Assembly (NCBI RefSeq): GCF_900537085.1
Contig: NZ_UNRE01000002.1
Coordinates: 186,289 to 250,288, forward strand
Source of the DNA: Agarivorans sp. Alg241-V36
GTDB taxonomy: Bacteria; Pseudomonadota; Gammaproteobacteria; Enterobacterales; Celerinatantimonadaceae
Length of the DNA stretch: 64,000 nucleotides
Reading direction: 5' to 3'
Shown here in pieces: positions 7,726-20,950 of the stretch (position 1 is its first letter; every line of letters starts with the position of its first letter). The notes under the pieces are model-generated. The model worked only from the letters and a program-made list of their open reading frames with translations. It was not told the origin of the DNA and searched no databases. The position numbers and the translations under genes were made by a program.

Positions 7726-8586
7726 ATGCGCACCTTGACACAATGGCTCAAAGTTTTAGCTTCAAAGTATACGCTTGGCGTAGTTGTTTTGAGCTCATGC
7801 TTGTTAGCCTGTAATTCTTCGCAACATGTAAACCAAGCCACTTCATCAGATTTGGAAGTGGAGTCTCAAGCGGCTGTTTTGCTGCAGCCTGCCTTAGCTC
7901 AACGTTTAAGTGACGACATGAGCCTACCGCATCAAATGTTACCCAGTGGGGTGCCTAGCTCGTATGATTGGTCACACGTTCCTCGCATTGGCTATGGAAA
8001 CTACCCAGGTGAATTTAGCGCTTTTTTAAGTTGGGGGCAGGCTTATTTGGCTGCGGGCAGTGAACCTGTTGATAATGTTCGAATTCAAATTGCGCATCTA
8101 ACAAGCTATGTACTAGATAGCGAAGATAGCCTTTGGTATGTGCTGCAGTCTTCTAGCGATATTGATGGTCATTATTACCGTGAAGACTTTGTTGATGATG
8201 AAAACAAAATCGCTGACTTACGAAAAGAGGAGTTAGGTAGTTCGGTTACTGTAACCGCGGACTATAACTTTCATTTTTGGCCCAAAACTAGCGGGCGAAA
8301 AGCCATCAGTGAGTCGCGTATTGCCGGCGTTATTTCTGTGGTTGCAGCCCGTTTGGTATTAGCGGATCCCAGTGGTCCCGATAATCGCGATCAAGCTCAA
8401 TACTTGATGAGTGTTGGTTCAGACTATTGGCTTGATAAACAAGCCGGATGGCAACAATGGACTACCAACGGTGATGTAGGCATTGGCAGATTTAGCTGTA
8501 TTGGTAATGATTGGCAGTGGTTTACCATGCATACCTTGTCTCAGCAGCAGCTAGCAAATGTGCTACCAGTGCTGCCTAGCCTGTAA
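7726..8586 (+). CDS. Putative lipoprotein of unknown function
   Basis: The 286-residue protein has a lipoprotein signal (VVVLSSCLLACNSS, lipobox LLAC), so it is probably anchored to a membrane through that Cys. The mature part is rich in aromatic residues and reads like a beta-sandwich: PRIGYGNYPGEFSAFLSWGQ, FHFWPKTSGR, ARLVLADPSGPDNRDQAQYL, SVGSDYWLD, GRFSCIGNDWQWF. I do not recognise a named family. The composition and the DPSGPDNRD segment suggest an extracellular carbohydrate- or surface-associated domain, which is inference only. It is monocistronic, with about 250 bases before it and 240 after. Confidence 0.7.
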   Translation: MRTLTQWLKVLASKYTLGVVVLSSCLLACNSSQHVNQATSSDLEVESQAAVLLQPALAQRLSDDMSLPHQMLPSGVPSSYDWSHVPRIGYGNYPGEFSAFLSWGQAYLAAGSEPVDNVRIQIAHLTSYVLDSEDSLWYVLQSSSDIDGHYYREDFVDDENKIADLRKEELGSSVTVTADYNFHFWPKTSGRKAISESRIAGVISVVAARLVLADPSGPDNRDQAQYLMSVGSDYWLDKQAGWQQWTTNGDVGIGRFSCIGNDWQWFTMHTLSQQQLANVLPVLPSL

Positions 8587-8829
8587 ATGATGAAGTAACA
8601 ATCAGTCAGCAAGTAAACCTTTCACTGTTCATTTCCTCTTTGAGCTAAACCTTCTCAATACAGGAAGTCAGAGGGTTCAAACTACTACTATTCATAAAAT
8701 CTATAGTTTGTATTGAAAACTACAATTTCATTTTATTTTGGTGGCGCGCTATCTTGAAGTTGAGGCTTAGTTAAACGAACGACTTAGCCAATAAAACAAT
8801 AACAAAATACCACCAGAAGGAATTTGACC

Positions 8830-9393
8830 ATGAATACAACACAACAAAGCGGTCAAGGTTACCAACACAAAGACAACCTATTTATAGACGCTCCCCTTGC
8901 GACATTTATTGAGCAAAAACTGCTAGGCAATAATACTGCTGATGCGGCTCAATTCTTTGAAGCGCTGTCTGTCTTGGTAGAAGAATTTGGTGGAACTTAC
9001 CGTAAATTAAACCAAAGCTGCCAAGAAATGGCCTGTGAGATCCACTTAAAACAGTGCCAAGCTAGTGCAGACAAGCCAAGCACAATCAACATTAGCCACG
9101 GCAGCAGCAAAGCCATTCTTGATGAGTACAGCTGTGCTATTCCAAGCTGTTTATTGGATGTGCTAACCACTACGGTAATCGCTAATAAGCAAGATATGAT
9201 GCTATTGCTTAGCACCACCAATCAAGCTGAAGCAGAGTTAATGGAAGCGGTGTTTGCTCGCGCGCATTGTTTAATGGGATTTGATTCGCAACATATAGAA
9301 GTGATTCGCCCAGTAGACAATGTAGCCTGTATTGCTCAAGCTAGGGAACGTGCTGAATACCACGATACCCCAGCTATGGTGAGCCATGGTTAG
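8830..9393 (+). CDS. Hypothetical protein
   Basis: This 187-residue cytoplasmic-looking protein belongs to no family I recognise. It has no signal peptide or membrane segment and contains scattered cysteines (SCQEMACEIHLKQC, YSCAIPSCLLD). ATG at 8830 is preferred over an in-frame TTG at 8824 because AAGGA lies about 8 bases before it. The region upstream is AT-rich and long enough for its own promoter. A strong bidirectional hairpin terminator follows directly and separates it from the convergent secreted-protease gene. Confidence 0.7.
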   Translation: MNTTQQSGQGYQHKDNLFIDAPLATFIEQKLLGNNTADAAQFFEALSVLVEEFGGTYRKLNQSCQEMACEIHLKQCQASADKPSTINISHGSSKAILDEYSCAIPSCLLDVLTTTVIANKQDMMLLLSTTNQAEAELMEAVFARAHCLMGFDSQHIEVIRPVDNVACIAQARERAEYHDTPAMVSHG

Positions 9394-9399
9394 AAGATA

Positions 9400-9427
9400 A
9401 AAAAAACGAGGCATTTGCCTCGTTTTT
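9400..9427. terminator. Bidirectional Rho-independent terminator
   Basis: The stem aacgaggc/gcctcgtt closes a small att loop and is flanked by an A-run on the left and a T-run on the right, so it can stop transcription from both sides. It sits between the convergent hypothetical gene and the secreted metalloprotease gene. Confidence 0.9.
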
Positions 9428-9441
9428 CTATTCACAGGGTT

Positions 9442-12213
9442 TTAGTAGCCCAGCAACAATGTCCAATAGATACGATAGCTACTGTTACTGTTTTCAGCAC
9501 TAGCACCACCAAAATCTTTATGGTTAGAATTCATTATGTGGCGGCAGTGACCTTCACTATTTAGCCAGCCGTTCATCACATCAGCAACTGAGCCATAACC
9601 AGCGCCAATGTTTTCACCTGCCCAGTACTTGTCGTAGCCGTGCTTACGAGCTCGGTCGTTGGAATCTGAACCATCCTGACCGGTGTGCGAGAAGAAGTTA
9701 TTATTGGCCATGTTGTCGGAATGCTCCTGCGCAGCCAGTTGCAAAGACTGATGAAATTGCACTGGAGTGGTAGCCGCATAATAGCTACTGCCGCAGTTGC
9801 GGCCGACGCTTCTGGCTTCATTAACTGCGGCGAGTAGTTCAGCCGAAATTGTACCTGTTTCTCCGCCATCACCAGGATTAGTAGGATCTGTTGGATCGTT
9901 AGGGTCAGTGGGTGTTTCAGCTTCTTGCCAGTCGTTTAGCTTGGCGTCATCAATGATAAACTCGGTGCCCGCACCGGGTCCGAAGAAGAATAGTTCTGCG
10001 CTTTGAATAGCACCTGTGGCTTGCACAGTGAAGTCGGCGGTTAGTTCTTGCCAGCTAGAGTTACCAGATACTTTGCCTAGCTTATACCAAGTATGGCCAG
10101 CGTCATCGAGAATCAATAAGCGTGACTCAATTACGCCAGTTCCTGAGCTCATGCGCACTTGAGCGGATAACAAGTAGCGTTGCCCAGCTTTTACCGCGTT
10201 GAACACGTCTTGCTTGGGACCGTGATACCACTGGGAACGGTTTTTACTGAGTAGTGCATAGTTGCTGTTGTAAGCGTTGGTAGTGATATTAGTGGTGGCA
10301 CTGTATCCAGACTTCCAATTAGTGGTTTGGCCGCTCTCAAAGTCACCATTTTTTAGCAGGTTAGTTGCTGGCTGTGGAGGCTCACTGCCGCCGCCATTGT
10401 CACCCCCATTATCGCCACCACTTCCATCTACAGGAATGAAGCGAACTTGGTCTAGGCGGGCTCCATCTTCGCGAACGTAGAAGGTAATTGTGTTGTCACC
10501 TTGAGTTAGCTCAACCTCGAAGGTTTCCGAAATGCCGCGCGCATTTACGTCTATCTCTTGGTACTCGGCTAGATTGTGGGTATCCCATAGGTGGCGCTCA
10601 CCGCCATTGATGCTAAACCAGAATGAGTCTGCGGTTGCGGTTGGCGCGTAGCTAGTGGCTTTTAAGCTGTAGAGCCCAGCACCGGTGGCATAAAAGCTTA
10701 GCTCGGCGCGGTTGGCGCTTACCGCATTGCCTTCGTAGTAGTTACCGTTTAGGGCTGAATCAATGTAGCTGCCTGCGCTAGCTACACTGTCGTTGCCTCG
10801 GCGGAAGATACCATAGAGCTGGGCATCTTCTGCTTCAATCACAATGGTGCTTGGCTCATTGCCGGTTTCGCCACCACCGTTATCTCCGCCACCATTATCT
10901 CCACCACCGTTGTCACCGTTATTACTATCGCCGATGCGAACTAAGCGGATTTGGTCCAAGCGAGCACCGTCTTCACGCGCATACACATTGATGTAATGCT
11001 CACCGCGGCTCAGGTCGACCTCAACGGTATCACTGACGTTGCGCGAGTTAATATCCATCTCATCGTAACTCGGAGTGCTTAAAGTATCCCATAAGTGCCG
11101 GGTGCCATTATCAACTTGCACCCAAAACGAATCGCTCTTGTTACTAGAAGAGTAAGCGGTACCCTTTAAACGGTAGATCCCAGATTGTTCGAGGGTAAAC
11201 TTCAGCTCGGCACGGTGTGTGCTAACCGTATCGTCGTAGTAGTTGCCTTGAAAAGCTGTATCGATGTAACCCCCCGCACTTGCTGCGTTATCGGTGCCGG
11301 TTCTAAACAAACCAAACAAGCTAGCGCTTTCGGCTTCTAAGATGACATCATTATTGTTGCCGCCATTATCACCACCATTGTCTCCGCCGCCGTTATCTCC
11401 GCCGTTGTCGCCACCACCATTGTCACCGCCGTTGTTGGCAGTTGGATACCATGCCGCTAGCTGCGGAGCGACCGCATTAATCGCGTCCACCGCTTCCGCG
11501 CCATTTGCAGTGTTCTTATCTACACCACAAGGGTAGCCGCGACAAGTAGAAACGGACGCATCAGAAAACTGACGAACGCGAGTGTAGGTGCTAAAGGCTT
11601 GAGGGTAGCCCATGATAGTACTAAATGAGCGGTCAACCCCGTAGCCTGTGCCGTAGTCAAATACGCCACCTAAACTGTTTTGTTTTCGAGAATGGCCAAG
11701 GCCCATGTTGTGGCCGAGTTCATGAGCAAAAGTAAGTGAGTCACAGCCCGAGCTGCCACCAACAAAGTTGTAAGCCCAATTTTTGAAATAGCCATCAAAA
11801 CGACCGTTGGAGCCGGTACCTACGTAGCCTAAACCGCAAGTACTGTTGCTGGGCATAGTGAGTAGGGTCACGATGTCGGCGCCATGCTCAGTGCGTAAAT
11901 TCATTACATTCTGATCTTGGCGAAATTGGTTTAGCGCGTTGCTACTCATCGCGGTAGCACCAGCCTTGTTATACTCACTGCTATGCACCAAGCGCACTTC
12001 TATATTCATACCGCTATTTTGATAGGCAGTATTTGTGGTGCTGATTAGGTGGCTAATATAGGTGTCCATGGCACCACTTTGTTCGGCTTTTACCGCGGGT
12101 GTGTAAAGCACCATCACATCAACAGTATGCGTGGCTTGTGCAACGGCAGAGCCGAGCAAGCCAACAAGGCAAATTCCTAGCTTTGCCGTAGCTTTTTTCT
12201 TTCCTTGAAACAT
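9442..12213 (-). CDS. Secreted zinc metalloprotease with carbohydrate-binding and CAP domains
   Basis: The 923-residue exported protein has these parts in order: signal peptide (about 1-27); reprolysin-like metzincin domain (28-257) with zinc site HELGHNMGLGH at 164-174 and Met-turn STIMGY; Gly-Asp-Asn linker (261-286); CBM6/35-like module (289-428); linker; second such module (457-597); linker; CBM4/9-like module (617-760) starting NLLKNGDFESG; Pro-Thr-Asp linker; and a C-terminal CAP/SCP domain (790-923) with FFSHTGQDG, AGENIGAGYG and EGHCRHIMN. The protease domain follows the signal peptide directly, without a pro-region. The neighbouring upstream gene may supply that part. Both CBM-like modules and the CBM4/9-like module recur in the gene at 13067-15508. 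Probably the last gene of a three-gene leftward operon. Confidence 0.92.
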   Translation of the reverse strand: MFQGKKKATAKLGICLVGLLGSAVAQATHTVDVMVLYTPAVKAEQSGAMDTYISHLISTTNTAYQNSGMNIEVRLVHSSEYNKAGATAMSSNALNQFRQDQNVMNLRTEHGADIVTLLTMPSNSTCGLGYVGTGSNGRFDGYFKNWAYNFVGGSSGCDSLTFAHELGHNMGLGHSRKQNSLGGVFDYGTGYGVDRSFSTIMGYPQAFSTYTRVRQFSDASVSTCRGYPCGVDKNTANGAEAVDAINAVAPQLAAWYPTANNGGDNGGGDNGGDNGGGDNGGDNGGNNNDVILEAESASLFGLFRTGTDNAASAGGYIDTAFQGNYYDDTVSTHRAELKFTLEQSGIYRLKGTAYSSSNKSDSFWVQVDNGTRHLWDTLSTPSYDEMDINSRNVSDTVEVDLSRGEHYINVYAREDGARLDQIRLVRIGDSNNGDNGGGDNGGGDNGGGETGNEPSTIVIEAEDAQLYGIFRRGNDSVASAGSYIDSALNGNYYEGNAVSANRAELSFYATGAGLYSLKATSYAPTATADSFWFSINGGERHLWDTHNLAEYQEIDVNARGISETFEVELTQGDNTITFYVREDGARLDQVRFIPVDGSGGDNGGDNGGGSEPPQPATNLLKNGDFESGQTTNWKSGYSATTNITTNAYNSNYALLSKNRSQWYHGPKQDVFNAVKAGQRYLLSAQVRMSSGTGVIESRLLILDDAGHTWYKLGKVSGNSSWQELTADFTVQATGAIQSAELFFFGPGAGTEFIIDDAKLNDWQEAETPTDPNDPTDPTNPGDGGETGTISAELLAAVNEARSVGRNCGSSYYAATTPVQFHQSLQLAAQEHSDNMANNNFFSHTGQDGSDSNDRARKHGYDKYWAGENIGAGYGSVADVMNGWLNSEGHCRHIMNSNHKDFGGASAENSNSSYRIYWTLLLGY
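11359..11436 (-). repeat. Gly-Asp-Asn linker repeat tract
   Basis: A run of near-identical 9- to 12-base units encodes repeated GGDNGG and GGGDNGG between the protease domain and the first carbohydrate-binding-like module. Similar shorter tracts separate the later modules at about 10860-10920 and 10380-10425. Such tracts can change length by slipped replication, so spacer length may vary between strains. Confidence 0.85.
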
Positions 12214-12245
12214 GTTGTGATTTCTCTTATAGATTTTGTAGTGAA

Positions 12246-12986
12246 TTAGTTAATCGGCGGCTTGGGAGTTACCACGGGCTCAGGCAATAGCTCGTCAGAG
12301 TGATTCCAGCTGCGTAGCGAACTCATTTCTCGACTCGATATGATCCAAGCTTCACCGCTGTGCCCCTGAATGAAGTAAGTTTCATAAGGGGTATCGATGG
12401 TGGCATATAGCGCATCTTGGCCAGAGGTAAGCGTGACTAGGTAGTTCTCACCGTTTCCGGTATCAAAACGAGAGATGATGTCTTTACCGCCATGATCTAG
12501 CGGCACAACACTGACAACTTCGGTGACGAAGTTCTCATCCAATTGCGGGACTGGGATGTCCAGTTGATCACCAACCCGTAAATCTTGCACATTGAGATTC
12601 GAATACTCGACAAAGCGGCGCTCGGTTCCGTCTTTTAGCAGTTCTTCAAATTGGGCAGGAACTTCTGGTAATACGTTCCAGGCGCGAACATGGCTTTCGC
12701 GCGGTAGGGAGTTGGCTACGCTACCTTCTTCGCTTGCCAGCTGAAGCGCTTGTTGCTGTTTCTCAGTGATGGGCGCCTGAGGCGTAATGGTCTTGCCGTG
12801 TTTAGCGCTTAGATCGCTACCTTCGGGTTGGTTTGTTTGCTCAGCGCTGCTGGTTGCTTTTTGCTGAGGTGGTGGAATTAAGGCTTGCTCTAAGTCTTGT
12901 TGAGGGCCATTGCTATTTAGGCTGTACAAGGCGGCTAAGCTCGCGGTCAGCAGAGCAAGTGCGCCTAAAGGGGCTGTCTTTTTCAT
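12246..12986 (-). CDS. Exported protein resembling a metalloprotease pro-domain
   Basis: The 246-residue protein starts at ATG 12986 (MKKTAPLGALALLTASLAAL), with GAGAA just before it. A longer frame from 13010 lacks a better ribosome site. After a hydrophobic signal segment and a low-complexity Gln/Pro stretch, the C-terminal half contains RFVEYSNLNVQDLRVGDQL, PLDHGGKDIISRF and TYFIQGHSGEAWIIS. This order of a basic strand, a GDxLxIPV turn, a long hairpin and a final YFI..G...I strand resembles the N-terminal pro-regions of bacterial reprolysin-like proteases. The next gene downstream, 32 bases away, is such a protease without a pro-region. I infer a separately encoded chaperone or inhibitor. 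The homology is not proven. Confidence 0.55.
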   Translation of the reverse strand: MKKTAPLGALALLTASLAALYSLNSNGPQQDLEQALIPPPQQKATSSAEQTNQPEGSDLSAKHGKTITPQAPITEKQQQALQLASEEGSVANSLPRESHVRAWNVLPEVPAQFEELLKDGTERRFVEYSNLNVQDLRVGDQLDIPVPQLDENFVTEVVSVVPLDHGGKDIISRFDTGNGENYLVTLTSGQDALYATIDTPYETYFIQGHSGEAWIISSREMSSLRSWNHSDELLPEPVVTPKPPIN

Positions 12987-13066
12987 GTCGTTCTCTTGTA
13001 TCAAATACAATTAAAGCGGTGCGAGGATGGGCTAGGCCGACGCAAGGTTGGCCAAGCCTCAAGCGT

Positions 13067-15508
13067 TTATTGCTCGGTCAGCGATACTTCATCAATGATG
13101 AAGCTCTTAGCTGCATCTGGGCCGAAGAAAAACAGCTCTGCATTGATCAGGCTACCACTCGCTTGAACGGTGAATTCGGCGCTGATCTCTTGCCAGGCAG
13201 TGCTACCTGATACCTGGCCTAGTTTGTGCCATACATGGCCAGCGCTATCTTGAGTAAGCAAGCGAGACTCAATCTTAGTGCTGCTGCCAGAAACCATGCG
13301 CACCATGGCGCTGAGTTTATAGCTGCTGCCCACGTTGAGCATGCTGATGACGTCTTGCTTGGGACCGTGATACCAAGCGCTACGGTCTTTACTTAACAAC
13401 GCATAATTGCCGCTATAAGCACTGGTTGTAGTGGTGGTGGTGGCTGAGTAGCCAGAAACCCAGCCTGTGCTGTTGCCTGTTTCAAAGTCACCATTTACCA
13501 GCAGGTTTACTTCTGGTTCAGGAATTGGAGGCTCTTCACCGCCGCCGTTCCCGTCTACGGGTAGTAAACGCAGTTGGTCTAAGCGAGTACCATCTTCACG
13601 AACATATACTGTGATAGTGTTTTGGCCTTCGTTTAGCTGAACTTCAAGGCTGTCGGTATTACCACGTGAATTTACGTCCATTTCATCATAAGCAGCGGTG
13701 GCTAAGGTGTCCCACAAATGAATGTCACCATCGTTTACTTGGATCCAAAATGAATCAGCGCTTTGGGTAGGCGAATAAGCAGTGCCTTTCACTAGGTAAC
13801 GCCCGGCGCCAGTGGCAATAAAGGACATCTTAGCGCGATGAGGATTACTAGTATTGCCCTCGTAGTAGCTACCGCTATAGGCGGAGTCGATGTATGCACC
13901 ACCTTGAGCAGCACTGTCACTACCTACTTTAAACTCACCAGACAAATTGGCGCTCTCTGCCTCAATAGTGATAGGGCGGGGAATACCGTCGTAGCCACCG
14001 TTTTCACCATCATCTTGGCCGCCATTACCCGCACCAATGCGAACCAGGCGCAGACGGTCTAAACGCGTGCCGTCTTCACGTACATAGACTACGATTTTGT
14101 GTTGCCCTGCTGAGATATCAATCTCAACTTGGTTGGCTTCGTTACGGTAGTTAACATCCATCTCCTCATAGTATGAGGTGTTGTTGGTATCCCAAACCTG
14201 ACGAGGGTTGTCGTTAACTTTTATGTAGAACGAGTCTGCTTGATTGTTCGGCGCAAAGGTGGTGCCTTTGAGGGCATACAAACCCGCTTTAGGAGCTGTA
14301 AAGCTAAGCTCGGCACGGTTAGCTTCTACGTTTTCGCTGTAGTATTTGCCTTGGTATTCAGCATGAATGTACTGACCGGCTGACGCGGCGCTATCGTTGC
14401 CTATTTTGAACAGACCAAAGAGTTGAGCATCTTCAGCCTCTATGATGATGTCGCTATCATTACCACCACCGCCATTATTGCCACCGAGCTCATTTTGTAT
14501 TTGCGCTTTGGCTGAGCTAGAGATACTCCAGCGCAGAGTATTTTCGAAGTATTGTACTTGGTCGCTGCGACTCGCTCGACTCACAATGCGATACCAGTTA
14601 TCTCGTGCTTGTTGGTGAGCAAAGCGGTTACTCAGACGTGGGTTGTTGTCTATTTGTTGATAAAGTCTTTGTACAAAAGCCTTGCCTCCTAAGGTGTCAT
14701 ACCACTCCAGCAAGACCGCTGACATTAGTGTGTTGATGGTACCGTTACGCCAAGGCAGTTTGCTGGTAGCCCAAACGTTATCAAAAGTATAAGCATTGTT
14801 GTTTAGGTACTTATTGAGTTCGTCTCGATGATCTTGGCGAAAGCGAGCATAGTCTTTACCGAAATAGTGCAGACCTACACCTAAATCATCAACAATCCAA
14901 AAGGCTGCGGCGTTGTTGAAGCCAACTGTCCAGTAGCCATAGGCTGAGTTATTACCGTCCATTGCCCAATCTATCCAAGCATTCCATCCGTTAGAACCGG
15001 TCTTGTAAAAGTTCCGATTCATTTCATATAACCATACTTGGTCAATGCTTATATTCCCTTGGCGTACTCGCTCATAAAAAGGGTTAAACAAACCGCTACC
15101 GACCGATAAGCCAAAGACGCCATGAGCAGCAAGACCGCCTGCACCATTATTGTCCTTGGGTATTTGAATGGTGGGTCGCCCTTTATAAGAACCATTCAAT
15201 GAGAGGTTGCGAAGGCCGGTGAATTCTTCGAAAGATGCTTTCGATGCAGCCATTAAGGCAACGATTTTTTCCATGGTAGCGCGTTCATAAGTGCTACCAG
15301 ACGCCCCTTCAATAGCAATTGCCATATTGTTGCTGTACCAAACCGTTGCGGTTCGGTTTCCTTGATTGGCGATATTGAAGTTGAAATTAACATTTTGGTC
15401 GATGTTAATTGCCACACCACCATTGTATCGAGCAGCAAATGAGTTACTCGACAAACACATTAAGATTGCACAGCACATAACCATACTGTGGCGCAGAATT
15501 TTAGCCAT
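13067..15508 (-). CDS. Secreted modular protein with peptidase-like and carbohydrate-binding domains
   Basis: The 813-residue exported protein has a signal peptide (1-26), an N-terminal domain of about 320 residues, two CBM6/35-like modules (about 354-492 and 513-652) and a C-terminal CBM4/9-like module (668-811). The N-terminal domain contains IDQVWLYEMNRNFY (about 156-168), where a gluzincin would carry HExxH; here it reads YEMNR, with no zinc histidines. It may be a non-catalytic or differently catalytic relative of such peptidases, which is tentative. All three C-terminal modules closely match those of the metalloprotease at 9442-12213. AGGGAAA precedes the ATG. The gene opens a probable operon with the pro-domain-like protein (80-base gap) and the protease. 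Confidence 0.85.
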   Translation of the reverse strand: MAKILRHSMVMCCAILMCLSSNSFAARYNGGVAINIDQNVNFNFNIANQGNRTATVWYSNNMAIAIEGASGSTYERATMEKIVALMAASKASFEEFTGLRNLSLNGSYKGRPTIQIPKDNNGAGGLAAHGVFGLSVGSGLFNPFYERVRQGNISIDQVWLYEMNRNFYKTGSNGWNAWIDWAMDGNNSAYGYWTVGFNNAAAFWIVDDLGVGLHYFGKDYARFRQDHRDELNKYLNNNAYTFDNVWATSKLPWRNGTINTLMSAVLLEWYDTLGGKAFVQRLYQQIDNNPRLSNRFAHQQARDNWYRIVSRASRSDQVQYFENTLRWSISSSAKAQIQNELGGNNGGGGNDSDIIIEAEDAQLFGLFKIGNDSAASAGQYIHAEYQGKYYSENVEANRAELSFTAPKAGLYALKGTTFAPNNQADSFYIKVNDNPRQVWDTNNTSYYEEMDVNYRNEANQVEIDISAGQHKIVVYVREDGTRLDRLRLVRIGAGNGGQDDGENGGYDGIPRPITIEAESANLSGEFKVGSDSAAQGGAYIDSAYSGSYYEGNTSNPHRAKMSFIATGAGRYLVKGTAYSPTQSADSFWIQVNDGDIHLWDTLATAAYDEMDVNSRGNTDSLEVQLNEGQNTITVYVREDGTRLDQLRLLPVDGNGGGEEPPIPEPEVNLLVNGDFETGNSTGWVSGYSATTTTTTSAYSGNYALLSKDRSAWYHGPKQDVISMLNVGSSYKLSAMVRMVSGSSTKIESRLLTQDSAGHVWHKLGQVSGSTAWQEISAEFTVQASGSLINAELFFFGPDAAKSFIIDEVSLTEQ

Positions 15509-15816
15509 TTAGTTTCCCTATTGACCGCTAGCAAATGCAGTGTTGTTGCTAGTCGCTCAAATCCTTTTGAGTTTATATTTATAGTAATTGTATGATTTTA
15601 AAGCAGGCTAATCATACTCCTACAATTAACAAAGTAAATAACAAGCATCAATAAATCTTTATAAATTAATAAGATATCGTTTTCAGATTTGGATTGGCAG
15701 GTAAGGGCGGCGATTTAAGCTGCTATCTGTGACATTCAGTTGCAAATTAAGCAAATCAAATAGAAACGCCGGAAACTGCTTTGAGGTTGGGTGGCTTTAA
15801 AGACTTGCATGTGAAT
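15509..15816. promoter_or_regulatory. Upstream region of the secreted-protein operon
   Basis: This AT-rich stretch contains no convincing gene. It must carry the leftward promoter for the operon that starts at 15508. I could not fix a specific -35/-10 pair or regulator site. Confidence 0.35.
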
Positions 15817-17925: not shown

Positions 17926-19050
17926 CTATTGAAGTGCGTTGGCGAAACCTTCAATGGCAGGTTTTTGTTTTAATTGCTCATCGAATAGCAGTGGCCAATC
18001 GTTATGACCAGTGAAGTTAGGGATCCAGCTGTCTGCGTCACTCACACCCCACACGCTAATGCCACCACGCTGGTTAGCTGGAACGTTGGCAAAATAAGCG
18101 GCAACAATTTCTTGGTAGCGCTCTTTTTGTTGTTGGGCCATTGATGCGGTGAAGTTATTTCTGTCACCATTGGGGTTCATTTTTATGTCTAGCTCGGTAA
18201 TTTTAACCTTCAAGCCTTTGGCAGCTACTTTGGCAAAAGAAGTCCCAATGGTTTCTGCACTTGGCCAATCGTAATTTACGTGCATTTGAAATCCAATGCC
18301 GTTAATTGGTACATCATCGGCCAGCAGTTCGTCTGCTAAACGTAATACCGAGTTTAGCTTAGCTCCGTCATCTTCAATGTTGTAGTCGTTGTAGTAAAGC
18401 TCTGCACTAGCGTCTGCTGCGCGCGCCATAGTAAAGGCTTTTGGAATAAAGTCTTTACCTAAATTACGATACCAAGGGCTACCATGGCCGCCGCTGTTTG
18501 CATCGGTATCACGGTAGCTGGCGTAGCCGTTGTCGTTATTGTCGTTAAAGGCTTCGTTTACCACATCCCAACTAAATACTTTACCGGCGTAGTGCTGAGC
18601 TACGGTGGTAATGTGGGCTTCCATCATGTCTTCCCAGTTACCACTGAAATTTATCATCCAGTCTGGCATTTGCGAGTGCCAGACCAAGGCATGAGCGTGC
18701 ACGGTAACGCCATTGTCTAAGGCCCAGTTCACCAAATTATCGGCATCTTCAAAGCTAAAGTTGCCTTGAGTGGGCTGTAAGTAAGAGGACTTCATGATGT
18801 TCTCTGCTGTAATTTGGTCAAAATGCTGAATCACTACATTTTGCAAATCAGGTCGAGATAAAATGCCGTTAGAAAACCAGTTTTGGTACTCAGCTGGAAC
18901 CGCAGCGCCTACATAGCTAGCTGTGAGATCTTTAAGGCTAGCTACTTCTGGGACTTCAATCGGCTCTCCTGAATCTGAGCTGGAGCCTCCGCAAGCAGCT
19001 AAGCTTGCACAAATTGCCGTTGAAATGAGTGCCATTGATAGTGAACGCAT
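17926..19050 (-). CDS. GH10 endo-1,4-beta-xylanase, lipoprotein
   Basis: The 374-residue enzyme hydrolyses internal beta-1,4 links in xylan. A lipobox, LAAC, places Cys20 as the lipid anchor, so it is probably held on the cell envelope. The GH10 barrel covers about residues 40-372. The acid/base Glu166 is in WDVVNEAFND and the nucleophile Glu286 in KITELDIKM. Substrate-site residues appear in VHAHALVWHSQ and GIGFQMHVNY. No carbohydrate-binding module is attached. AAGGATTAGGT precedes the ATG, and a LacI-type palindrome sits 17 bases upstream of the start, so induction by xylo-oligosaccharides is likely. The porin upstream may import the products. Confidence 0.95.
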   Translation of the reverse strand: MRSLSMALISTAICASLAACGGSSSDSGEPIEVPEVASLKDLTASYVGAAVPAEYQNWFSNGILSRPDLQNVVIQHFDQITAENIMKSSYLQPTQGNFSFEDADNLVNWALDNGVTVHAHALVWHSQMPDWMINFSGNWEDMMEAHITTVAQHYAGKVFSWDVVNEAFNDNNDNGYASYRDTDANSGGHGSPWYRNLGKDFIPKAFTMARAADASAELYYNDYNIEDDGAKLNSVLRLADELLADDVPINGIGFQMHVNYDWPSAETIGTSFAKVAAKGLKVKITELDIKMNPNGDRNNFTASMAQQQKERYQEIVAAYFANVPANQRGGISVWGVSDADSWIPNFTGHNDWPLLFDEQLKQKPAIEGFANALQ

Positions 19051-19142: not shown

Positions 19143-19660
19143 CATGGGATTGCTAAAACACTTTATCGTTTTATAAGAAATTGCTTTTGTGACCTAGAAC
19201 GGAAGTTGGCAGTTTGGAATGACTAGTTGTCCCCTTAAATTTCCTTTAAATCAATGAGAAAGAAAGGTGGGTTAGGGCTTACCTCCGCTAATGCTATAGC
19301 TTTTAATCCTGCCTAGTTAGTCTTCTATAGAGTTAATGTTTGTTGTTATAAACTGGCGTTAGCGTTCGCTTTGAACTGTTGCTTTTCTGTATTCTCTGCT
19401 TATATCACCAATTAAGACTTTATATTCTTATTTTTATTGTTTGGTGATATTTAATGCTGCATTACGTTTTATAACAGCGCGATAGAATAAATTACAGCTT
19501 TTGCTTTCATTTGTGATCTGTATCTATGGTAAGGTTTTCATGCGTGATATTGCTCTCAATTTAGTCAATTTTTTGGATGTATATTCTGTTTCGTTGTCGC
19601 CAGCCCCATCGCGGCAAAATAAAAAGCATAAAAATATCATTATTCCAGGAGTTGTTTTAT
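19143..19660. other. Porin upstream region with a long inverted repeat
   Basis: About 520 AT-rich bases precede the porin start. A perfect 10-bp inverted repeat, atatcaccaa (19402-19411) and ttggtgatat (19441-19450), is separated by 29 bases. A TGTGA half-site at 19511 might be part of a CRP site, but the second half is missing. No gene is convincing; a short frame starting at 19501 overlaps the porin leader and has no ribosome site. Confidence 0.4.
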
Positions 19661-20950
19661 ATGAACGTGAAAGCGCTTACATCGGCAGTGGCAATTGCAC
19701 TTACTTGTTCACCTTTAGCTAGCGCAGCTGAAGATGAGGTTAACGCCGACCAGTTTCAACAAATTAAAGACTCACAACCGGTTGTTTTAGACCCTGACTT
19801 TCAAGTTGAAGAGGGCATTATTTTCTCTGGCTATGCGCGTTACGGTTTGCATTATTCCGATGACTTTCAAAAATATGTTCAAGCTGAAGGTGAGCTAGCG
19901 GGGCGTGCGACAGGTCGCTTAGGTAACGAAACCAATGGTGGCGAATTTCAATTTGCTAAAGCCTTCCAAAGTGACAGTGGCGCAATTTGGGATGTGGTAT
20001 TGATGCTAGAAAACTGGTGGAAGTACGAGTCAGAGCTGCAAAGTGGTGAAGAAATATCAGAGTATGGTGATATAGCGCTTAAAAAATTCTACGCCGGTGC
20101 CACTAACATTTTTGCTTCGCAACCTAACGCTTACATTTGGGCTGGACGAGACTTCCACCAACGTCCACAACAGGGCATAAATGATTACTTCTGGATGTCT
20201 CACGATGGTCAAGGTGGTGGTATTTATAACCTTGAATTGGGTGATATGGCAAAACTAGACTTCTCGGTAGTGGGTCAAGTTGATGGTCCTGGAGATAACG
20301 GCAACTACGCACTTACCTCTAAGTTACATGCCTTGCAACTGGCTGATTCATTAGCCTTAAGCTTTTTGTTCAACTACGGCTTTGAAAGCGACCAATATGA
20401 CGACAATGGCGTAATTGAAAACAAAGACAAGATCAATGCTTACCACTTAGCCGCAGTGTTAGATCAAAACTGGTCTAAAGGCCGCAATCAGTTTATCGCG
20501 CGCTATGCAGATAATGCCGATACCAGCGTATTCAATAAAACCGAAGACTTAACCACGCTGTATTTAAGCTTGGAAGGTGCGGTTAATTTTAATGAGAAAG
20601 TGGCCTTAGAGTACTTAGGTGCCTACCACAATTACGATGCTAACTCTTCAGAAGATGATCGTACTAACTACAGTGCCATTATGCGCCCAATGTACAACTG
20701 GAACGAAACGCACTCTACCTGGTTAGAAGCGGGTTACTCTGTGGTTGATTACGACCAAGGTGGTAAAAACAAAGCTTGGAAAGTGACCTTATCGCAAAAC
20801 GTTACCATTAACGCCTTTGCCAATGCTCGTCCAATGCTGCGCTTTTACGTGACAGCGGGTCAAGCCGATAACCAAGTTCGTAGTAACGAAGCGATTGCCG
20901 CCGAGCAAGATACTTTAGCCATGGGCGCAATGTTTGAGTCTTGGTGGTAG
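19661..20950 (+). CDS. LamB-like carbohydrate porin
   Basis: The 429-residue outer-membrane protein has a signal peptide ending near LASAAEDE and then the maltoporin-like barrel. It opens with FSGYARYGLHYSD, followed by GRLGNETNGGEFQFAKAF, and contains AYIWAGRDFHQRPQQGINDY and FWMSHDGQGGGIYNLELG. It ends on an aromatic residue (ESWW), as barrels do. Relatives pass malto-oligosaccharides or other sugars. The xylanase next door and the shared control region suggest xylo-oligosaccharides, which is inference. I chose ATG 19661 because CCAGGAG lies 8 bases before it and a proper signal peptide begins there; an upstream in-frame start at 19577 gives no signal. Confidence 0.88.
   Translation: MNVKALTSAVAIALTCSPLASAAEDEVNADQFQQIKDSQPVVLDPDFQVEEGIIFSGYARYGLHYSDDFQKYVQAEGELAGRATGRLGNETNGGEFQFAKAFQSDSGAIWDVVLMLENWWKYESELQSGEEISEYGDIALKKFYAGATNIFASQPNAYIWAGRDFHQRPQQGINDYFWMSHDGQGGGIYNLELGDMAKLDFSVVGQVDGPGDNGNYALTSKLHALQLADSLALSFLFNYGFESDQYDDNGVIENKDKINAYHLAAVLDQNWSKGRNQFIARYADNADTSVFNKTEDLTTLYLSLEGAVNFNEKVALEYLGAYHNYDANSSEDDRTNYSAIMRPMYNWNETHSTWLEAGYSVVDYDQGGKNKAWKVTLSQNVTINAFANARPMLRFYVTAGQADNQVRSNEAIAAEQDTLAMGAMFESWW

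Follow-up and report, generated by a model that had tools for sequence, protein, structure and literature searches.

A Mep72/BamI-type protease unit in Agarivorans, probably enlarged by a co-targeted partner from an undescribed protein family

Introduction

Mep72 of Pseudomonas aeruginosa is reported as a type II secreted, self-digesting protease with carbohydrate-binding domains, whose autolysis is slowed by alginate (PMC4334185). The same paper describes Mep72 as toxic in E. coli unless BamI, which binds it, is co-expressed, and reports no evidence that bamI and the gene preceding it share a transcript. Secretion of the Acinetobacter metzincin CpaA requires CpaB, which has one predicted N-terminal transmembrane segment (PMC4713064); a table entry there lists the P. 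aeruginosa gene beside mep72, printed as PA2872, as a putative chaperone. Aspartate switches are described for the metzincins astacin, meprin beta, fragilysin-3 and karilysin (PMC9629494). Here we report a three-gene locus in a 64,000-nucleotide stretch of Agarivorans sp. Alg241-V36 (NZ_UNRE01000002.1, positions 186,289 to 250,288; the window), in which genes 2 and 3 are akin to BamI/CpaB and Mep72, and gene 1 encodes an exported protein that carries the same binding modules as gene 3.

Results

Genes 2 and 3 resemble the BamI-Mep72 pair

Three open reading frames lie in a row on the minus strand, at 13067-15508 (gene 1, 813 amino acids (aa)), 12246-13010 (gene 2, 254 aa from a TTG) and 9442-12213 (gene 3, 923 aa). 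With the alternative start of gene 2, an ATG at 12986 that gives 246 aa, the intergenic gaps are 80 and 32 bases, as an earlier note on this DNA had described for three leftward genes. The features of genes 2 and 3, including carbohydrate-binding modules (CBMs), are as follows.

12246..12986, minus strand: gene 2, a 246-aa BamI/CpaB-like, membrane-anchored putative chaperone-inhibitor, ATG at 12986
12918..12974, minus strand: hydrophobic N-terminal segment, gene 2 residues 5-23, likely inner-membrane anchor
9442..12213, minus strand: gene 3, a 923-aa Mep72-type protein with a signal peptide (by eye), a metzincin domain, two CBM6/35-like modules, one CBM4_9 module and a CAP domain
11446..12132, minus strand: metzincin (M12B-like) catalytic domain, gene 3 residues 28-256
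11692..11724, minus strand: HELGHNMGLGH, gene 3 residues 164-174, read from the sequence
10933..11346, minus strand: CBM6/35-like module 1, gene 3 residues 290-427
10429..10845, minus strand: CBM6/35-like module 2, gene 3 residues 457-595
9949..10362, minus strand: CBM4_9 module, gene 3 residues 618-755
9457..9834, minus strand: CAP domain, gene 3 residues 794-919 (Pfam E 1.7e-16)

The nearest NCBIfam family of gene 3 is Mep72 (NF052434; 405.8 bits, E 2.9e-121), and its traits are Mep72-like: an M12B-type domain with HExxHxxGxxH is followed by carbohydrate-binding modules, and a bamI-like gene is adjacent upstream. We take HELGHNMGLGH to be the zinc-binding motif. The metzincin domain starts directly after the signal peptide, leaving no space for a pro-domain of its own, and the CAP domain passes the Pfam cut-off (PF00188; 61.5 vs 21.1 bits). 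A zinc metalloprotease fused to three modules and a CAP domain, as earlier proposed for this gene, is thus confirmed as to its M12B-type metzincin and CAP domains. Gene 2 matches BamI (NF052435; 28.6 bits, E 1.1e-6, cut-off 180) and CpaB (NF033512; 25.7 bits, E 9.9e-6, curated cut-off 90), and has what is expected of a CpaB-type protein, namely a CpaB-homologous domain and, at the N-terminus, a hydrophobic anchor. All of these scores are below the curated NCBIfam cut-offs, including that of gene 3 (405.8 vs 645 bits for the whole protein), so the two genes are kin rather than certified members of the BamI and Mep72 families. The earlier statement that all three products are exported holds for the two large proteins, judged by signal peptides seen by eye; the small one has a hydrophobic N-terminal segment that is likely a membrane anchor (mean Kyte-Doolittle 1.67 over residues 5-23).

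To place the pair among its relatives, we used a sample of 60 related genomes, own genome included. It contains seven bamI-like matches in five genomes and seven close mep72-like matches (E <= 1.3e-53) in the same five. By coordinates, every one of the seven bamI-like matches lies directly upstream of a close mep72-like match, and vice versa, and a hydrophobic segment stands at the N-terminus of each of the seven bamI-like proteins (mean Kyte-Doolittle 1.4-2.7 over 19 residues). A profile of these seven sequences found the solved CpaB chaperone 6o38_G in the PDB at E 9e-5, and at E 1.3e-5 when an eighth sequence was added. Ten further mep72-like matches were weaker (E 1.3e-28 or worse). Searched with flanks of about 1.5 kb, their loci gave the bamI profile one separate downstream gene (L029) and two marginal in-frame N-terminal matches (L018 and L019; E 0.001-0.002), with no match within these flanks in the other seven. 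The L029 protein, from genome G033, exceeds the NCBIfam CpaB cut-off (94 vs 90 bits), and its gene follows one that is CpaA-like (468 bits against a cut-off of 750). The two genes, CpaA-like and then CpaB, occupy L029:286-3359, and the same contig holds another CpaA-like match, L021, at a distance of about 3.8 kb.

Like Mep72/BamI of P. aeruginosa (NF052434/NF052435), the window locus has a bamI-like gene directly upstream of a metzincin that has a signal sequence and ends in carbohydrate-binding domains, with a short gap between the two genes (32 bp in the window, 77 bp in P. aeruginosa as given in Table 1 of PMC4713064). It differs in having a CAP domain and two CBM6/35-like modules in addition, and in the presence of a third gene whose product carries the same modules. 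CpaA/CpaB of Acinetobacter (NF033511/NF033512, PDB 6o38) are likewise a metzincin and its dedicated chaperone, the latter anchored by an N-terminal transmembrane segment, but there cpaB is given as lying downstream of cpaA (PMC4713064), and model positions put the protease domain at the C-terminal end of CpaA. Together, these comparisons indicate that genes 2 and 3 very probably form a chaperone-metzincin unit of the Mep72/BamI type that is also kin to CpaA/CpaB. The earlier view that no described system has this make-up does not stand, since the pair is already known in kind; the new features are the fusion to CAP, the set of modules and a partner that belongs to a new family. Our literature search found no publication on the combination of CAP, metalloprotease and CBM, which does not prove that none exists.

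Gene 2 as a probable detached pro-domain with a candidate aspartate switch

A class-wide search with the bamI profile matched four of 369 genomes: the own genome (two matches) and G307, G313 and G201. In the latter three the match precedes, in one uninterrupted open frame, a metzincin with HExxHxxGxxH, and the fused N-terminal parts score 43.0, 36.7 and 27.3 bits against 5.0 bits for the best of 3000 shuffles. Ahead of their catalytic domain these single-chain metzincins share the core domain and tail region of gene 2, but as a fused BamI-like part, and no CBM partner was seen within their loci of about 3.2 kb. From these profile matches, the bamI domain occurs in three forms: an upstream gene of BamI type, a downstream gene of CpaB type and a fused N-terminal part. 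This suggests that gene 2 is, in evolutionary terms, a detached metzincin pro-domain. Since single-chain metzincins elsewhere carry the BamI/CpaB-like domain at their N-terminal end, the term 'split protease' used by the earlier note fits genes 2 and 3 in this evolutionary sense; a peptidase part in gene 1 was not supported. No publication tying BamI or CpaB to fused pro-domains was found in the literature search, though one may exist.

The C-terminal tail of gene 2 holds a residue that could mediate latency.

12294..12296, minus strand: Asp231 in the gene 2 C-terminal tail (DELLPEP), candidate aspartate switch, from the alignment

Among 13 aligned tails, eight from separate and five from fused proteins, the column of Asp231 is Asp in 12 and is in the top five for conservation out of 142 gap-poor columns; only the fused G307 protein departs, with Asn. 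Independent support is smaller than 12 of 13, because the Asp was first spotted in seven of these sequences, and one and the same alignment program positioned the fused ones. The pattern D-x(2,3)-P is present in 11 of the 13 tails against 6.6 expected, a count reached in 15 of 2000 shuffle rounds; this is weaker than the Asp alone, and the second copy in the own genome fits the pattern through a different Asp than the aligned one. In aspartate-switch zymogens an Asp of the pro-segment blocks the metzincin zinc (PMC9629494), and Asp231 may likewise be an aspartate switch, acting in trans on gene 3. The known switches act in cis, while gene 2 would act from a separate membrane protein. The paper passage on CpaA-CpaB names the tail and no aspartate.

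The N-domain of gene 1 belongs to an undescribed family

Gene 1 combines a new N-terminal domain (N-domain) with binding modules.

13067..15508, minus strand: gene 1, an 813-aa exported modular protein with a signal peptide (by eye), the new N-domain, two CBM6/35-like modules and one CBM4_9 module
14480..15433, minus strand: N-domain, gene 1 residues 26-343 (318 residues)
15011..15028, minus strand: YEMNRN, gene 1 residues 161-166
14036..14449, minus strand: CBM6/35-like module 1, gene 1 residues 354-491
13556..13972, minus strand: CBM6/35-like module 2, gene 1 residues 513-651
13094..13507, minus strand: CBM4_9 module, gene 1 residues 668-805 (Pfam E 1.6e-19)

The N-domain has no significant sequence match in Pfam, NCBIfam or the PDB. 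The relatives recovered by the searches are a second copy in the own genome (58% identical), an orthologue in the same-genus genome G002 (88%) and three proteins on Bacteroidota plasmids, of Hymenobacter tibetensis, H. qilianensis and Spirosoma oryzicola. With a profile built from the three close members, the plasmid proteins reach 1.4e-12, 2.5e-5 and 8.3e-4, against 0.18 for the best among 3000 shuffles; no single stretch of the third protein is significant on its own (0.16), and its link runs through H. tibetensis at 7e-17. The domain is rare, found in 2 of 60, 1 of 369, 2 of 394 and 1 of 398 genomes of overlapping samples, own genome included. Scans of genome contigs and viral contigs with short peptide patterns, which can miss distant relatives, returned none, and the Hymenobacter relative had no match in the phage collection. 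Fourteen columns, including YE..RN, are invariant, although the distant members are just 17-24% identical to the window's. The ratio of non-synonymous to synonymous change (dN/dS, NG86) against G002 is 0.025 for the N-domain, 0.031 for the metzincin, 0.034 for CAP and 0.167 for gene 2, the N-domain value being rough because dS is saturated at 2.4. Judged by these comparisons, the N-domain is an undescribed protein family.

The earlier note had seen a peptidase-like domain in this 813-aa protein. We set aside the reading of gene 1 as a peptidase, which is not supported: there is no significant family match, all six members found carry YE[MFL][NG]RN and none has HExxH. The N-domain might be a degenerate zinc peptidase, a non-catalytic substrate-binding or decoy partner of the metzincin. 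Seen by eye, the pattern resembles HExxH with both histidines replaced in all six members, and an AlphaFold model built from three sequences puts YExxRN in a helix with strands before and helices after, an unreliable arrangement in a model that is unusable as a fold (mean predicted local distance difference test (pLDDT) 40). No profile links the domain to a zincin family, and the 14 invariant columns, like the low dN/dS, would suit an active site equally well. We therefore regard a pseudo-zincin as rather unlikely.

Other candidates were tried and set aside. Pfam matches of single N-domain members were judged chance among the six members (Phage_tail_3 at 0.024, DUF6016 at 0.078, PRKCSH_1 at 0.12 and OrfA at 0.16), as were PDB matches, mostly to antibody light chains (E >= 0.019 with the three-row profile; one at 1.4 with the six-row profile). 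The N-domain may bear some likeness to plant basic secretory proteins. Of the zincin families sought for comparison, M60 (PF13402) and Peptidase_MA_2 (PF13485) were each found in 0 of 21 genomes, the latter also in none of the controls. BSP (PF04450) was found in 2 of 203 genomes and neither match was used: L050, just over the cut-off with its neighbours, is antisense to a longer open reading frame, and L051 lies in an M48-type-looking peptidase.

Genes 1 and 3 share three modules, two of them private within the genome

The three modules of gene 1 recur in gene 3 in the same order, with 54% identity in the first and 58% in the second (each about 138 aa) and 65% in CBM4_9, as the earlier note had observed. 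All four matches to the CBM6/35-like modules in the own genome fall within genes 1 and 3, and so do all four in G002; across the 40 genomes searched, the only further match was a weak one in G027 (2.4e-4). Genes 1 and 3 should therefore settle on the same target via these modules, which agrees with the common target previously proposed, given that the CBM6/35-like pair is private to them in the own genome.

The nature of the modules is less certain. A structural model gave Foldseek hits to CBM35 2w3j and similar entries (E 2.1e-4), with a best template modelling (TM) score of 0.54, and a PDB sequence search with the modules gave nothing better than E 0.32. The mean pLDDT of this model is 58, with the first 43 residues below 50, and the CBM6/CBM35 assignment is tentative for that reason. 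As a lead, the shared ligand may be an alginate-like, uronic-acid polymer: a PL7 gene adjoins the N-domain paralogue, and alginate affects Mep72.

The second locus of the own genome

The paralogue stands in a second locus that reads, in order, PL7 alginate lyase, N-domain paralogue, FAD oxidoreductase-like and RidA-type genes (by eye), then a convergent mep72 and bamI. The PL7 gene (L005:6004-7062) is the next gene upstream of the paralogue, on the same strand with a gap of about 0.8 kb, and the mep72-bamI pair lies about 2.5 kb away. The paralogue is outside the operon and has two CBM4_9 modules and no CBM6/35-like ones; all that it has in common with its mep72 neighbour is distant CBM4_9 (25-27% identity). 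Its first CBM4_9 groups with modules from Mep72-type proteins in both G005 and G030 (identity up to 53%, group support 1.0), and on this ground proteins with an N-domain take their modules from the same repertoire as those of Mep72 type. At L005:11875-12170 and L005:15869-16164, inside two RidA-like genes (by eye), are the copies of a 296-base direct repeat (94%); the second mep72-bamI pair lies between them, which suggests its insertion or tandem duplication.

This neighbourhood bears on a different view of gene 1, as a new polysaccharide-active enzyme, a lyase or hydrolase, for which the protease just clears the associated protein matrix. The carbohydrate-binding modules, the PL7 gene beside the paralogue and the GH10 gene and LamB-type porin near the trio are consistent with it. 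However, the N-domain has no significant match to any carbohydrate-active Pfam family, the extra domains of the Bacteroidota relatives are PKD, Ig-like or none that is recognised, and the Bacteroidota flanks that were fetched hold no carbohydrate-enzyme annotation, many of their genes being called 'hypothetical'. An enzyme of this kind seems rather doubtful to us.

Synteny of the trio

The order of the three genes is kept in one same-genus genome, G002, while searches of five further genomes of the genus did not find the N-domain. A partner of the gene 1 type is absent from four of the seven bamI-mep72 loci, and the partner at the own second locus is about 2.5 kb off and convergent. The trio is thus not obligatory; as a fixed unit it comes apart in relatives and so fails the condition that the earlier note had set, whereas the bamI-mep72 pair within it stays together in all seven cases.

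Such a distribution might mean that gene 1 merely hitch-hikes, having been duplicated or recombined into the bamI-mep72 locus through similar CBM modules, with no joint function. The four loci without gene 1 and the great rarity of the N-domain would fit. However, all three N-domain genes of the genus lie within, or no more than about 2.5 kb from, a bamI-mep72 pair, the modules are under purifying selection (dN/dS 0.05-0.10 against G002), and the order is kept in G002. We consider hitch-hiking quite unlikely. A bamI-mep72 pair joined by a second exported protein with the same modules may be a recurring theme, with one clear case in the window and G002.

In G005 and G030, calcineurin-like phosphatases with fn3-type repeats (L030:4813-6858 and L032:9055-10887; 54% mutual identity) stand beside bamI-mep72. 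The G005 gene is co-directional, 67 bases past the pair, and its product looks secreted; the G030 gene is divergent. The repeats of the G005 phosphatase align with its Mep72 neighbour (24-34%), in whose repeats Pfam calls no fn3, and equally with Mep72-type proteins of other genomes (30-36%). Because of this resemblance to Mep72-type proteins elsewhere, the case is just a hint of shared modules.

Transcription and neighbourhood

Two sites flank the trio.

9400..9429, minus strand: terminator-like hairpin with a T run, 3' of gene 3, from a pattern scan
15611..15638, minus strand: promoter-like hexamer pair upstream of gene 1 (9/12 consensus matches)

The strong hairpin (13 pairs, followed by the T run, at 9429-9400) comes right after gene 3, and the scan, which scores consensus matches only, lists no terminator-like site on the minus strand in either gap, in keeping with the earlier remark on the gaps. 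The promoter-like pair is no evidence by itself, because the region has nine such sites and shuffles average 9.0. The compact same-strand layout, with a terminator-like hairpin only past gene 3, is operon-like, as previously suggested, and points to a single transcript for the three genes.

The guanine-cytosine (GC) content of the three genes (0.47-0.51) gives no clear sign of foreign origin when compared with 17 other genes (0.42-0.50; window 0.455). Two genes just past the trio (7726-8586 and 8824-9393) have no significant Pfam match and are also present in G002. Near the trio are the GH10-family gene (17926-19050), just 77% identical to its G002 counterpart, and the LamB-type porin gene (19577-20950), a possible sugar-uptake neighbourhood.

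Discussion

Overall, we favour as probable the interpretation that the locus encodes a secreted protease unit of the Mep72/BamI type to which a co-targeted partner from a new family has been added. Sec would export the products of genes 1 and 3, and the gene 2 product would be inserted in the inner membrane and stay there. In the periplasm, gene 2 would fold the gene 3 metzincin and block its active site with the C-terminal tail, probably via Asp231, until the protease leaves the cell. A type II system, of which the own genome has a GspD over the curated cut-off, would then export gene 3 and probably gene 1. The modules would place both proteins on one polysaccharide-rich target, with an alginate-like polymer of an algal wall or biofilm as the lead, where the protease, with its CAP domain, and the N-domain would act side by side on a glycan-protein matrix. 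The domain make-up, the homologies, the gene order, the shared modules and their privacy within the genome, and the conservation are computed results; from these we infer the single transcript, the secretion route, the latency in trans, the common ligand and the joint action.

Several observations weigh against this interpretation. A GspD alone is no proof of a working type II system. To this are added the family scores of genes 2 and 3, the four loci without a gene 1-type partner, the low confidence of the module model, the position and differing modules of the N-domain paralogue, and the CpaA-CpaB passage without an aspartate.

A bolder suggestion, which we put forward as unlikely, is that gene 1 founds an exoenzyme family in which a zinc-peptidase-like helix was rebuilt from HExxH to YExxRN for other chemistry. 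This enzyme would be co-delivered to one polysaccharide with a CAP-armed metzincin held latent in trans by a detached, membrane-anchored aspartate-switch pro-domain, a principle that would be common to BamI and CpaB.

Under the interpretation of an enlarged Mep72/BamI-type unit, two protease helpers described separately, BamI as an inhibitor and CpaB as a secretion chaperone, would come into one evolutionary frame, as both match a domain that other metzincins hold in cis. The tail aspartate, kept in nearly all aligned relatives, would offer a testable mechanism for the restraint of Mep72 by BamI, a question left open by Passmore et al. In Agarivorans, an undescribed N-domain family would be tied to a protease by targeting modules, the CBM6/35-like pair, that are found in no other gene of the genome.

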